DNA from: Haladaptatus paucihalophilus DX253 | Lineage (GTDB): Archaea > Halobacteriota > Halobacteria > Halobacteriales > Haladaptataceae | Assembly (NCBI RefSeq): GCF_000376445.1 | Contig: NZ_AQXI01000001.1 | Location: 124,001-188,000 of the forward strand | DNA: 64,000 nucleotides | Direction of reading: 5' to 3' | Shown here: positions 42,835 to 56,111 of the stretch, piece after piece | Numbering within the stretch: the first letter of the stretch is position 1 | Layout of the letters: each line of letters begins with the position of its first letter | Program-made: the position numbers and the translations under genes | Notes under the pieces: generated by a model | Told to the model about the DNA's origin: nothing | What the model saw: only the letters and a program-made list of their open reading frames with translations | Databases searched by the model: none

Positions 42835-43815
42835 CTACGTCCACTGGTCGAGGCCGGTCTGGGTGATGCTCTCTTCGATGCGCTCGAAGCCGCGCGCCAC
42901 CTCGTCCTCGCGGATGTCCCACTCCTCGGTGACGTACTCGCGCGCCGCCTCGATGTCCGGGTCCATCTCCGGGTCGAACTCGAACTCGTCGGTCACGTCG
43001 GGTTCGAGGAACATCCCGCGGATGACGTCCACGTTCTCGATGTACGCGTCCCGTTCTTCGAGGACGCCCCAGAGGTCGCCGTGCTCTGTGACGCCCTTGA
43101 GCGCCGTCTTCGGGCCGACGCCGGAGACACCTTCGTTGAAGTCGGTGCCACAGAGGATGGCGATATCGACCAACTGCTCCCACGTGATGTCGTGTTCGTC
43201 GAGCGTCGCCTCGAAGTCCATCAGTTCGGGATTCCCCTTGCTCGTCAGTTGACGAAGGGTGAGCGGCGCGCCCAGCAAGAGCGCGTCGTAATCCTCGGTC
43301 CCGGCGTAATCGACCGCGCCGGTTCGCGCCATGTGCGCCGCCTGCGCCTCGCCCTCCGCGGGCGCTTCGATGACCGGCACGTCGAGCAGGTCGAGCAGTT
43401 CCCGCGTCGTCTCCTGAATGACGGGGGTGAGTCGCTGGGTGTGGGCGTCGAGCCGCGCGACTTCGATTGCGTCGCCCTCCTCGCGCGCCTCCTCAAGTCG
43501 CTCCTCCAGTTTCTCGCGCTGTTCGCGCCGGTCCTCGATTTCGTCGCTCTTGAGGTCGGTCACGTGGCCGTCGAAGACGAACACCGGCGTCAGGTCGTGC
43601 TCGAAGAATTTCGGTAAGCCCTGGACGACGCCGACGAGATTTGCGACTTCGGTGCCGTCCTCGGTGGTGTACACCTCGTCTCGCGTCCATTTCACCGTCG
43701 TCGTGAGGTAGCGATAGAGCCAGTTGTGCGCGTCGATGGCGACGAGCGACCCCTCGATGTCGTCGAAGCTGATCTCTTCGAGGGATGCGAGCTGTCGAAG
43801 TGCGGAGTTTCCCAT
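42835..43815 (-). CDS. fen: Flap endonuclease 1
   Basis: 326 residues. Structure-specific nuclease that removes RNA-primed flaps during Okazaki maturation and repair. N-domain motif [19 protein letters not shown] and [11 protein letters not shown]-domain motif [13 protein letters not shown] and the metal-binding acids [30 protein letters not shown]. The extreme C-terminus TQTGLDQWT is a PIP-box-like peptide that binds PCNA. Complete. Confidence 0.95.
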
Positions 43816-43920: not shown

Positions 43921-44934
43921 CTAACTGCCGGAGTCGGTCGTCGTGGTCGTGGTAGTCGTCGTCCCGGAACCGTCGTCGGTCGTGGTTGTCGTGTCGCTCG
44001 TCCCCGTCGTTGTAGTCGTATTCGTCGTCGTTGTGGTTGTATTCGTGGTGGTCGTGTCGGAGTCGTCGCCGTTCGTCGTAGTCGTCGTGGTCGTTTCGGA
44101 ATCCGACCCCGACCCACGTCCGAGCGCGGCGTCGAGTTGCGCTTTCGTCTTCTTCGGGTTCACCGTCGGTGCCGTCACCGTGTCGCCGACGACGATGCGG
44201 GGAACGGCCGAAATCGGAATCTCGTGTACCTGGTCCATCGTCCGTTCGATTTGGGACTGGTACTTTTTCGCCTCGATTTGCGAGGTGATTTTGGAGAGGT
44301 GGCTCACGTCGGCCTCCTCGGCGATGCGGACGAGCGTCTCCGTCGTCGCCCACCCCGGCGAACTGTTCTGGTTCTGGAACATCGTACCGAAGTACGTCCA
44401 GTAGGATTCGGGGTCCTCGTTCCAGACAGACAGTCCGGCGCGTGCGGCGCGGGGTTCGTCCGGGCCGTGGAACCCTTCGCCGTCCTCGTAGGCGACTGCG
44501 CGGAACTCGATGGCCACGTCGCCGGGTTTCACGTACTCCTCGATGAAGGTCGGTAGGATGTTCAGGACGAAGTCGTGGGTGTACGGGCACTTCCACGCGC
44601 CGTAAAACTTCGCCGTCACCGAGGCGTCGTCGTCGCCCATCGTCGCGTACTCGTTCTCGGTCGGCTTGCTCGGCAGCGGAACCGACCGGTACGCTTTCGG
44701 CGACGGTTCGACCTTCTCCGGGGGACCCTCGTCGGACGCCGACTTCGAGTCGTTTTCGGTGTCGGTCGTCTCCGGGGCCGCCGGGCCCTCCTCCGTGGTA
44801 GTCGACTGTTCGCCGCCGGACCGTTCGCCCGTCGTCTCGGGACTCCCGTCCTTCGAGAAGGCCGAACACCCCGCAATTCCGGCCGAGAGTCCCGCCCCGA
44901 TGACGCCGAGCACTCTTCTTCTATCGTCTCTCAC
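43921..44934 (-). CDS. DsbA-fold lipoprotein with threonine-rich tail
   Basis: 337 residues. Tat-like leader (RDDRRRVLGVIG) and lipobox GIAGC (Cys23), a low-complexity Ser/Glu/Thr linker to about residue 95, then a thioredoxin-like DsbA domain (FYGAWKCPYTHDFVLNILPTF; cis-Pro in SAVPRIVVG). Active site is CPYT, with only one Cys (C116). The tail of about 60 residues is almost only Thr, Asp, Asn and Ser in TTTTT-like runs, perhaps a glycosylated cell-surface stalk. Faces the outside. Confidence 0.8.
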   Translation of the reverse strand: MRDDRRRVLGVIGAGLSAGIAGCSAFSKDGSPETTGERSGGEQSTTTEEGPAAPETTDTENDSKSASDEGPPEKVEPSPKAYRSVPLPSKPTENEYATMGDDDASVTAKFYGAWKCPYTHDFVLNILPTFIEEYVKPGDVAIEFRAVAYEDGEGFHGPDEPRAARAGLSVWNEDPESYWTYFGTMFQNQNSSPGWATTETLVRIAEEADVSHLSKITSQIEAKKYQSQIERTMDQVHEIPISAVPRIVVGDTVTAPTVNPKKTKAQLDAALGRGSGSDSETTTTTTTNGDDSDTTTTNTTTTTTNTTTTTGTSDTTTTTDDGSGTTTTTTTTTDSGS

Positions 44935-51689: not shown

Positions 51690-53006
51690 TCACTCCTCGT
51701 TCGCCCGGCGACGGATATCGACGCGATAGTCCGAAAGCACGTCCCGCCCGAGGATGAGGTGGTGGCGCATGTGGCTTCTGTCCTCGACGCTGGCCGTGAC
51801 GCGGTGCCACCGCCCGCCGATGCCGATGTCCACGTCCACCAACGGCCGTGTTTTGCTCGTTTTCCCGCTGCCGAACTTCACGGCGGCGCTGCTCTTGACG
51901 GGTCCCGCGCCGACGCGCGACGCGAGGTCGATGCCGATGCTCGTTCGGGTCGCGCCGGTGTCCGCCTTGGCGACGACCGACGCCGCCTCGCGCATGCCGT
52001 TGACCGTCACCCACTCCGTGTAGCCGACCGTCCGCCGTCCGTTCGCCGCGGCCGAATCGACCGGCTTGCAGTTCGGAATCGAGTCGTCGAGCGTCCTCGC
52101 AACCGCTTCGACCCGTTCGCTGGCGACCTCGCCGCCAGCGCATTCGATGGCGTACCGGGCGATGAACGGGGCCGCGCTGCTGCCGGTCGCGCGGAAGAGG
52201 CCGGTAAACCCCGCCGTCGGGTTCACTTCGAGGACGTACCAGTCGCCGTTCCACTCCATCACGTCGACACCGGCGACGTCGAGACCGAGGACGTGCGTCG
52301 CCTCGCGTGCGATGGTTCGAACCTCGTCGGGAATCTCGTCCGTCGCGTCTTCCGGCGTTCCCCCGCGCGCAACGTTCGTCCGCCAGTCGCCGTTCGGGGC
52401 CGAGCGTCGCATCGCGCCGACGATTTCGTCGCCGACGACGTAGACGCGGACGTCGGACTGTCTCCCGTCTTGGTCGAGAAACCGCTGGAGGAACGTGTGT
52501 CTGTTGCCGACCATCGGCGTCGGCCGTTTGCCCGTCCCGACCTTCCACGCGGCTTCGCCGTGAGTTCCGATTCCCGCCTTCTGGAGTATCGGCCCGCCGA
52601 CGAAGCGACGACCCTCCGCGAACGTGGCGGCGGACAGTCCGAGGAACGAATCCGGCGTCCTGATGCCGTGGTTCGAGAGGCGGACCGCGGTCGCGTACTT
52701 GTGAATCGCGGTCAGCACGGCGTCCGGCCGGTTGACCATCGGGCGGAGTCCGGCGACCGCGTTAGCGATTTCGAGGTGTTCCAGCGGGTGTTCCGCGGTC
52801 GTCAACAGCAGCCGATTGACGACGATATCCACGTCCGGGGCGAACCGCGGCTCGTCGTCGAGTATCTGAATCCGGGTGTTTCCCTTCCGTAACCAGACCG
52901 GCGTGTAACCGAGGTCCTCAACCGCGTTCAAAATGGCCTTCGTCTCCTTGCTGTTGTGAAAACTGAGGACGCCGACCCGAATCGGGGCGTCGTCTGTGCG
53001 AGCCAT
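51690..53006 (-). CDS. ATP-grasp (RimK-type) and retropepsin-like protease fusion
   Basis: 438 residues. Residues 1-310 are a RimK-like ATP-grasp ligase: RPMVNRPDAVLTAIHKYATAV, QRFLDQDGRQSDVRVYVVGD, and metal-binding WYVLEVNPTAGF (E260, N262). Residues about 325-430 resemble the RimK-associated aspartyl (so-called zinc) protease domain: Asp-Thr-Gly in KADTGATRTSI (349-351) and terminal HHLILGRDVL. Fusing a peptide-forming ligase with a putative protease suggests making and trimming amino-acid tags. Substrate unknown. Confidence 0.83.
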   Translation of the reverse strand: MARTDDAPIRVGVLSFHNSKETKAILNAVEDLGYTPVWLRKGNTRIQILDDEPRFAPDVDIVVNRLLLTTAEHPLEHLEIANAVAGLRPMVNRPDAVLTAIHKYATAVRLSNHGIRTPDSFLGLSAATFAEGRRFVGGPILQKAGIGTHGEAAWKVGTGKRPTPMVGNRHTFLQRFLDQDGRQSDVRVYVVGDEIVGAMRRSAPNGDWRTNVARGGTPEDATDEIPDEVRTIAREATHVLGLDVAGVDVMEWNGDWYVLEVNPTAGFTGLFRATGSSAAPFIARYAIECAGGEVASERVEAVARTLDDSIPNCKPVDSAAANGRRTVGYTEWVTVNGMREAASVVAKADTGATRTSIGIDLASRVGAGPVKSSAAVKFGSGKTSKTRPLVDVDIGIGGRWHRVTASVEDRSHMRHHLILGRDVLSDYRVDIRRRANEE

Positions 53007-54188: not shown

Positions 54189-54416
54189 CTAGCGGGCGTA
54201 GAGCTTCGACCCGACAAGCATCGCCAGTTGCGCGTCCTCGTCCGGCGACACCGCCACGTACGGCCGCGACACCGGCCCGAACACGTCCACGACCCGACCG
54301 ACTTCCGACAGCCCTTCGTCCACCACCGTCGTCCCGATGTTCGGGTACTCATCGCTCGGCGACCGCACGATGGCGAGTCCTTGGGCCGTCCGGACGACCT
54401 GTCCCAACCGCTGCAT
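54189..54416 (-). CDS. gar1: H/ACA ribonucleoprotein subunit Gar1
   Basis: 75-residue beta-barrel: RLGQVVRTAQGLAIVRSP, IGTTVVDEGLSEVGRVVDVFGPVSRPYVAV (the Gar1 core). Part of the H/ACA pseudouridylation complex with Cbf5, Nop10 and L7Ae. Its ATG overlaps the TGA of srp19 (TGATG), so both are made from one transcript. Confidence 0.92.
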   Translation of the reverse strand: MQRLGQVVRTAQGLAIVRSPSDEYPNIGTTVVDEGLSEVGRVVDVFGPVSRPYVAVSPDEDAQLAMLVGSKLYAR

Positions 54417-54697
54417 CAGTTGCGCATGGCCGTGACGTACGCGGCGACGGCCTGAATGAGGTCGTTCTTCGAGGAGTCGTCGGCGTTCTGCACCAACACG
54501 CGACCGCGCGCCGTCCACCCCTCGCGGGAGTAGGCTTTGTCGCGTTCGATGACGGTATCGTAGCCGACTTGTTGCACCGCTCGGGCGATCTCGTCCACCG
54601 TCGGGTCCTCGACGGCGGATTCCTGGGGCACCCGCCGCCCCTCGCCGCGGGTCAACTCCGCGTCGATGTAGGCGGGCCAGATGACTATCTCGACCAT
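54416..54697 (-). CDS. srp19: Signal recognition particle 19-kDa protein
   Basis: 93 residues. [42 protein letters not shown] is a clear SRP19 N-terminus; binds 7S RNA and helps SRP54 dock. The C-terminus ends [10 protein letters not shown]. Short for the eukaryotic protein, normal for archaea. Upstream lies the 10-bp-periodic AT-rich tract. Confidence 0.93.
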
Positions 54698-54800
54698 ACC
54701 TACCTCTCCACAGTCCCGCGTTAAACGCCTTTTCGTGTCACGCCGAGGCGGGAACCGATGTCGGTCGTGGGTCCGCTTCCGTTACGGACGATACGGAATA

Positions 54801-54940
54801 GTAGAATACAGTATATGAAGATGGAAGAAAGTAGATGGAAGTGTAGAGTAGCAGAAAACAGTAGAGAGCAGTAGAAAACAGTGTAGAACAGTGTAAAATA
54901 GTATAAAATAGTATGAGGACAGAGGATTCAGTAGTAGTAC
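54801..54940. repeat. 10-bp periodic AT-rich tandem repeat
   Basis: About 14 degenerate decamers in strict 10-base register; examples: GTAGAATACA (54801), GCAGAAAACA (54851), GTAGAAAACA (54871), GTGTAGAACA (54881), GTGTAAAATA (54891), GTATAAAATA (54901). Lies in the 334-base gap 54698-55031 between btuF and srp19, which contains no supported gene. A-runs spaced by one helical turn would bend DNA. Far more AT-rich than flanking genes. Confidence 0.85.
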
Positions 54941-55031
54941 AACAACATTCAGTACTTTTCACTACGCTTTAGTAGATTACCTTGGCGGTCACGGTGAGGG
55001 CAGCAGGGAAAGTCGGGGGATTTCGAACCGC

Positions 55032-56111
55032 TCAGTCGCGCCGCGCCAGCAGTCCGACCAGCGCGACGGCGGCGACGGCGACGGGAACGCCGAGTCCGGG
55101 TTGGCCGTTCGATTCCGTCGTCGTGGCGGCAGTAGTCGTGGTCGTTTTCGAGTCGGTGCCGCTCGTGTCCGTGTTCGTGGTTTCAGTCGTCGTGGTGACG
55201 TTGGCCTGTGCGTACGCCTCCGGGTGGAGCGTCTTCGCCAGTTTCGTGATGGGTGTCACGATTTGCGGGGCGGGTTGGCTCACGTAGTTCGGGTTCAGCG
55301 AGACGGTCCGGTTCTCCTTCGCGGCCGGGGTTTCGCCATAATCGTCGGGAATCTTCGAACCGGCCGAGAGGATGAACCAGTCGGGTTGCTGTTCGACGAC
55401 GACTTCGCTGCTGATCGGCTGATAGCTCTTTATTCCCGCCTCGGCCGCGACGTTCGTTCCGCCCGCTTGCGTGATGATGGTGTCCATGAAGGTTCCCGAC
55501 CCGGCGGTGTACCCGCCGCTCATCACGTACATGACCTTAGGGCTGTCCTCGCCCTCGACGGCCTGATGGACGGTTTCGATGCGGTCTTTCATCCACGAGA
55601 CGGTCCGTTGTGCGCCGTCGCACTCGCCGGTGAGTCGCCCCGTGAGTTCGGTTTTCGCGTAGATGTCGTCGATGGACTTCGACTCGCGGAACTTGTACAC
55701 CGTCAGCCCCGCATCGCGGAGCTTCTTCACCGTCTCGTCCGAGATGACGTTGGGCGCGAGAACGAGGTCGGGTTCCTGCGCGACGACCTTCTCGGGGACG
55801 GCCGCCGTCATCCCGGAACCCGAGACGTTCGCCTTCGCGCTCGCGCCGTCGAGGTACGCGGAGTACTTCGAGACGCCGACGACTTTCTCCTTCCCGCCGA
55901 TCTTCCACATCGTCTGGGCCGCGCTCGGCGAGAGCGTGACGATCCGACTCGGTTCTTCCTCTATCGTGACGTTCGTGCCCGTCGCGTCGGTCTTCGTGAC
56001 CGGGTACGTGCAGGTCTCCTGTGCACCGGCGACGCCCGCGCCGAGGCCGACTCCGAGGGAGCCGACGACCGCGGCGACGAGCACCAGTGCCGACAGCAGT
56101 ACGCGTCTCAT
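55032..56111 (-). CDS. btuF: Cobalamin-type ABC transporter substrate-binding protein with C-terminal anchor
   Basis: 359 residues. Sec signal (RRVLLSALVLVAAVVGSLGVG), then a BtuF/FepB fold: RIVTLSPSAAQTMWKIGG, VVAQEPDLVLAPN, and KVMYVMSGGYTAGSGTFMDTIITQAGG. After about residue 300 comes a Thr/Ser-rich stretch and a C-terminal PGLGVPVAVAAVALVGLLARR of PGF-CTERM style, so it is anchored by archaeosortase rather than by a lipobox. Divergent from btuC. Ligand by homology is a corrinoid; haem or siderophore are alternatives. Confidence 0.86.
   Translation of the reverse strand: MRRVLLSALVLVAAVVGSLGVGLGAGVAGAQETCTYPVTKTDATGTNVTIEEEPSRIVTLSPSAAQTMWKIGGKEKVVGVSKYSAYLDGASAKANVSGSGMTAAVPEKVVAQEPDLVLAPNVISDETVKKLRDAGLTVYKFRESKSIDDIYAKTELTGRLTGECDGAQRTVSWMKDRIETVHQAVEGEDSPKVMYVMSGGYTAGSGTFMDTIITQAGGTNVAAEAGIKSYQPISSEVVVEQQPDWFILSAGSKIPDDYGETPAAKENRTVSLNPNYVSQPAPQIVTPITKLAKTLHPEAYAQANVTTTTETTNTDTSGTDSKTTTTTAATTTESNGQPGLGVPVAVAAVALVGLLARRD

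Follow-up and report, generated by a model that had tools for sequence, protein, structure and literature searches.

The parC centromeres of ParR/parC plasmid systems are built from tandem direct repeats, of 10 bp in pB171, 11 bp in R1 and 20 bp in pSK41, which are bound by the ribbon-helix-helix adaptor ParR and thereby organised into a higher-order nucleoprotein structure (PMC9426499), and in the parH site of plasmid TP228 the protein ParG coats a series of tetramer boxes that are degenerate and separated by AT-rich spacers (PMC7308502). The tract described here, found in a window of 64,000 nucleotides (the whole stretch of Haladaptatus paucihalophilus DX253 DNA that was analysed), resembles both in its anatomy: like parC it consists of tandem direct repeats with a unit of about 10 bp, and like parH it combines a short conserved core with AT-rich spacers. 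Unlike parC, which is one plasmid locus beside the parM and parR genes, it belongs to a set of 27 dispersed chromosomal arrays, and unlike parH, which is a single plasmid site with ACTC boxes at a pitch of 8 bp, these arrays have a pitch of 10 bp and an ACTR core.

In Bacillus subtilis the binding sites for Noc are specific sites scattered round the chromosome that provide a link to division and to the membrane (PMC4331003). The present arrays share with them the scattering of specific sites over a chromosome. Each Noc site is a single palindrome recognised by a ParB-like protein, whereas the sites described here are direct-repeat arrays in an archaeon. Methanocella conradii and Leptospira interrogans carry dispersed satellites, i.e. 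non-coding repeat families found through the genome with repeats of more than 30 nt (PMC6749651); our arrays are likewise non-coding and genome-dispersed, but differ in that no more than half of the 10-bp unit is conserved and in the wide minimum distance between arrays. At a larger scale, self-interacting domains 25-570 kb in size have been mapped in the chromosome of Haloferax together with about 70 loops, the mechanism of looping being described as not fully resolved and the domain boundaries correlating with highly expressed genes (PMC9764264), and histones are not regarded as the dominant packaging proteins of haloarchaea (PMC10626798).

The phased tract between btuF and srp19

The tract lies inside the 334-bp gap between the stop of its upstream neighbour, a btuF-like periplasmic binding protein gene (55032-56111, supported by tblastn synteny), and the start of its downstream neighbour, a called gene (54416-54697) that we take to be srp19 on the basis of the preliminary description and knowledge of the protein family; both genes are on the minus strand. 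A position-weight scan with a matrix built from the other arrays of the genome (see below) located 14 decamers in exact 10-bp register at 54794-54933 on the minus strand with a score of 73.5, compared with a background of at most 18. About three additional decamers (TACTAAAGCG TAGTGAAAAG TACTGAATGT), whose register is shifted by one base relative to the main array, are found at 54945-54974 on the same strand from a score of 24.9 and direct reading. The preliminary description reported about 14 decamers in exact 10-base register at 54801-54940, AT-rich in GC-rich surroundings and situated between btuF and srp19. Register, composition and position were all correct, and the limits were near, although the array proper is 54794-54933 and its out-of-register extension reaches 54974.

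The periodicity far exceeds chance, since 76 of 130 positions over 54791-54930 are identical at a lag of 10 bases, whereas 5000 dinucleotide-preserving shuffles of the tract had a mean of 42.9, an SD of 5.4 and a maximum of 61. TRF reported periods of 10 and 20, and at the periods tested the tract is the strongest periodic 140-bp stretch in the window. With an AT content of approximately 57-70%, it is richer in A and T than the window as a whole (36%). Its minus-strand unit is YACTRWWWNN (e.g. TACTATTTTA), and GTRTARAAYA, the consensus proposed earlier, corresponds to one frame of its reverse complement; the conserved part is, however, the YACTR core and not the runs of A.

Being AT-rich and 10-bp periodic, and with a T-rich stretch downstream of btuF on the btuF coding strand, the tract could be a locally acting element, and the preliminary description had suggested a bend caused by phased A runs, an upstream promoter element for srp19 or a terminator for btuF. 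Using a dinucleotide wedge model, we found the tract to be no more curved than its own shuffles (z = -0.4) and the predicted curvature of 25 arrays to be mixed, and intrinsically curved phased A-tract DNA was rejected on these grounds. With respect to srp19, a box outside the array, GACACGAAAAGGCGTTTAACG (54719-54739, minus strand), lies upstream of the gene, is kept in all nine genomes of the genus and is probably the srp19 core promoter. This CACGAAAAGG-GTTTAACG box, which separates the array from the nearby gene start, is kept whether a genome has the array or not, and as seven of the eight congeners have no array here, the proposed promoter element is contradicted. A terminator function is at odds with the other arrays, which lie between convergent, divergent and codirectional genes and in both orientations, though at this single locus the tract may still terminate btuF. 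The tract also has no match in Rfam. We therefore regard a locally acting curved element, srp19 promoter element or btuF terminator as very improbable.

A dispersed family of arrays

Since one window cannot show a family, the 27 dispersed arrays to which the tract belongs had been missed. A genome-wide pattern search ruled out that the tract is a single-locus oddity: three consecutive YACTRNNNNN units match 46 times in the genome and once with the reversed-pattern control, a four-unit pattern with up to two mismatches 76 times and once, respectively, and a five-unit pattern with up to three mismatches 68 times without any match for the control. After clustering, the pattern matches correspond to at least 27 arrays, 24 of them on contig C1 (2.95 Mb) and three on contig C3 (0.36 Mb). 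All 27 arrays (25 in the first check, later joined by L411 and L412) lie between genes as called by a simple codon-usage script. In the weight-matrix scan the arrays score 38-74, whereas the array-free sequence sampled, 520 kb from C1 and 100 kb from C2, does not exceed 18 except at one AT-rich low-complexity locus; with scores in this range and a sampled background that is almost never above 18, the arrays are discrete. No decayed array remnants were found by the same scan in the 520 kb of C1. A short and nearly pure AT palindrome (TATAATATAGTATTAAAAATTTCTATTATTTACTATTATATAGTATTAAATATTATA) is present at C1:221735-221800 (in L453) in the otherwise GC-rich chromosome.

In 189 units, positions 2-4 (A, C and T) are conserved at 97, 98 and 94%, a pyrimidine (T or C) stands at position 1 and a purine (G or A) at position 5, and A or T prevails at positions 6-8. 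Because a unit had to match the five-base core in four or more positions to be counted, part of the contrast between core and spacer follows from the selection, while the strict register does not. Same-strand distances from one YACTR to the next are 10 bp in 78 cases, 9 bp in one case and 11 bp in none, a strict 10-bp register that falls within the tandem direct repeats of about 10-11 bp typical of ParMRC-type sites. In the present genome, adjacent units share 1.91 of 5 spacer positions compared to 1.74 of 5 for units of different arrays, and 122 of 2000 permutations were as high. Since ACT is kept while the spacers diverge, and adjacent spacers are not more alike than others, the arrays do not stem from recent tandem duplication, and simple tandem duplication was rejected as their origin. 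Something appears to maintain the ACT in most units and to let the spacer drift.

The same comparison bears on the possibility that the arrays form an interspersed minisatellite family without function, spreading or arising repeatedly in intergenic DNA. Prokaryotic satellite families exist (PMC6749651), the distribution of the arrays among species is patchy, and local duplications are seen in L169, L172 and the arrays of genome G022 (see below). In the H. paucihalophilus genome, neighbouring units are not more alike, as those of a minisatellite should be; the core is kept while even adjacent spacers are unlike each other, the arrays have no common flanks, they are discrete and without remnants in the part of C1 scanned, and a selfish repeat would not be expected to keep its copies so far apart. 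A minisatellite family of this kind thus appears rather unlikely to us.

Neighbouring genes and flanks

Among 25 arrays, nine lie between convergent, seven between divergent and nine between codirectional genes, and they occur in either orientation, which is random relative to the genes. The neighbours are unrelated housekeeping genes, including purL, hisF, srp19, btuF and genes for EngB-like, HflX-like and ferredoxin proteins. In an all-against-all comparison no neighbour gene was common to arrays of different species except at btuF-srp19, and the idea of a common neighbour gene encoding the binding protein was rejected from the same comparison. If the arrays were operators of a cooperatively binding transcription factor or silencer controlling the adjacent genes as a regulon, then phased cooperative sites would be typical, and many arrays do have a gene start less than 200 bp away. 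Yet the nine arrays between convergent genes have no start nearby, the orientation is random with respect to the genes, the neighbours have no shared function, and a spacing of at least 46 kb (see below) is not expected of operators, so that we consider a regulon unlikely.

Among the direct neighbours listed for the arrays other than L411 and L412, inspection by eye revealed no parM/parR-like pair, i.e. an actin-like ATPase with a ribbon-helix-helix partner. Since no partition genes were seen beside the arrays read, the arrays cannot be counted as parC sites.

No common flanking element was found at the array edges, and without a shared flank at a fixed distance, a transposon-borne array or mobile insertion element was rejected. 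A longer dispersed repeat, unrelated to the arrays, is present near a few of them, and its distance and orientation differ from one array to the next. This type of intergenic repeat, up to about 130 bp long and possibly a MITE-like element, was seen in the 5' flanks of L164, L178, L179 and L182 (88% identity between L164 and L178), and its GGTTGGGGAGG(G)TGTGG motif was also noticed by eye upstream of srp19 in the congener G007 and at purL-hisF in the congener G008.

Spacing and direction of the arrays

On C1 the 24 arrays are evenly spaced, with a smallest gap of 46.6 kb and a largest of 354 kb. The spacing and alternation statistics that follow were devised after seeing the data, on one draft genome of six contigs and with too few arrays in the relatives for replication; read in this light, none of 100,000 random placements reached a minimum gap of 46.6 kb on C1 (P < 1e-5), C1 and C3 together gave 1e-5, the first 22 arrays alone gave P = 0.0001, and the minimum still held once two further arrays had been added. 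Adjacent arrays are opposite in direction at 17 of 23 steps on C1 (P = 0.017-0.029), and inclusion of C3 with two of two steps gives a post hoc P of about 0.007-0.03, which makes the alternation suggestive only. A quantised spacing of about 60 kb with "missing" arrays was rejected, as two gaps among those of about 200 and 350 kb contained no decayed arrays when scanned with the weight matrix.

The arrays are confined to C1 and C3; C2 and C4-C6, which together make up 1.0 Mb, are free of them (P = 0.0013). The GC content of C2 and C3 is like that of the chromosome, and the DNA of C4 is shared mainly with Haladaptatus plasmids. Since three of the arrays are on C3, a contig that lacks tRNA genes, a restriction to the main chromosome is not proven. 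Sites for replication, recombination or repair, e.g. replication-fork or topoisomerase sites, might show such wide spacing and such absence from C2 and C4-C6. An Orc1/Cdc6-like gene, however, adjoins one array only (L175), and close relatives have few or no arrays in spite of a shared replication machinery, which leaves this explanation quite improbable.

Occurrence in relatives

In eight congeners the pattern of three YACTRNNNNN units was found zero or one time each, except for G007 with six matches. The preliminary description had looked to relatives for the same tract at srp19; a short array is indeed present at the syntenic site in G007, as one of five arrays in that genome and in the same orientation, whereas the other seven congeners have none there. 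The gap between btuF and srp19 is 39-73 bp in six congeners and 721 bp in the sister G008, all of them arrayless. In G003 there are two weak arrays, and G008 has one decayed copy, at purL-hisF, where ACT is broken in some units. At two other orthologous sites G008 is without arrays, and the intergenic DNA is shorter there. As these close relatives live with few or no arrays, the role of the arrays is not essential in the genus. A single decamer-phased sequence, approximately CACTGCARACTACTAAAATGTACTTTCGGRTACTGTAACGTACT, is common to G002 (L413 4024-4073), G004 (C3:80511) and G005 (C1:756669), three congeners otherwise without dispersed arrays.

Outside the genus, G022, which belongs to another genus of the same family, contains six arrays of a related type, with the core TACTG (L343-L348) and with 10/10/9 or 10/9 spacing, some of which are tandem-duplicated as super-repeats of 29 or 19 bp. 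When 392 genomes of the class were searched with four exact units, a dispersed set was found only in H. paucihalophilus and G022, and most of the other matches were microsatellites or isolated tandem repeats. Among the matches listed in scans of genome and viral contigs, of which those in Natrialba and the viral ones with at least 50% GC were read individually, the sequences looked like microsatellites, VNTRs or chance matches.

Proposed function

We tentatively favour the reading, which we consider quite possible, that the tract is one of a dispersed set of phased binding sites for a putative oligomerising protein and has a chromosome-organising role. The array family follows directly from the sequence, and the protein, its oligomerisation and its role are inferred. 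The arrays are present in many copies, are chromosomal, widely spaced and independent of genes, as chromosome-organising sites should be, and their abundance, their mutual distances and their disregard of gene content speak for a role at the chromosome scale. The earlier idea of a chromatin-positioning element survives in part, since the tract is still best classed among protein-organising DNA elements, while the local proposals of a bend, a promoter or a terminator fail.

Each array would probably offer a series of weak sites, all on a single face of the DNA and one for every helical turn. One conserved trinucleotide per 10 bp, on the same strand throughout an array, suits a small protein aligned on one face of the helix, and such an oligomerising DNA-binding protein may fill the array cooperatively, reading the ACT in YACTR and tolerating the AT-rich spacers. 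As the arrays are spaced 47-354 kb apart on the main chromosome regardless of the neighbouring genes, they most likely act at the chromosome scale, where they could serve as loop or domain anchors, or as a distributed centromere-like or membrane-tethering site. Their spacing is inside the range of 25-570 kb reported for Haloferax domains (PMC9764264). The adjacent arrays tend to alternate in direction, as might be expected of directional loop anchors, and the arrays might be anchors with a defined direction in a distributed system for chromosome folding or segregation, with a reader protein that polymerises along one helical face, a proposal that we regard as doubtful.

To our knowledge, sequence-defined architectural sites are hardly known in archaea. 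Dispersed, discrete and widely spaced sites of which one species has a full set and its sister hardly any would make chromosome folding directly accessible: an array could be used as bait for the protein, the protein could be mapped, and folding could be compared with and without arrays.

Other features of the window

The window also contains a degenerate (GTC)n trinucleotide tract of approximately 52 copies at 43937-44094, and its highest predicted curvature starts near 43810, just before this tract. Closer to the array, an ORF on the minus strand (51690-53006) appears by eye to encode a RimK-type ATP-grasp ligase-like protein fused to a retropepsin-like (RimB-type) domain.
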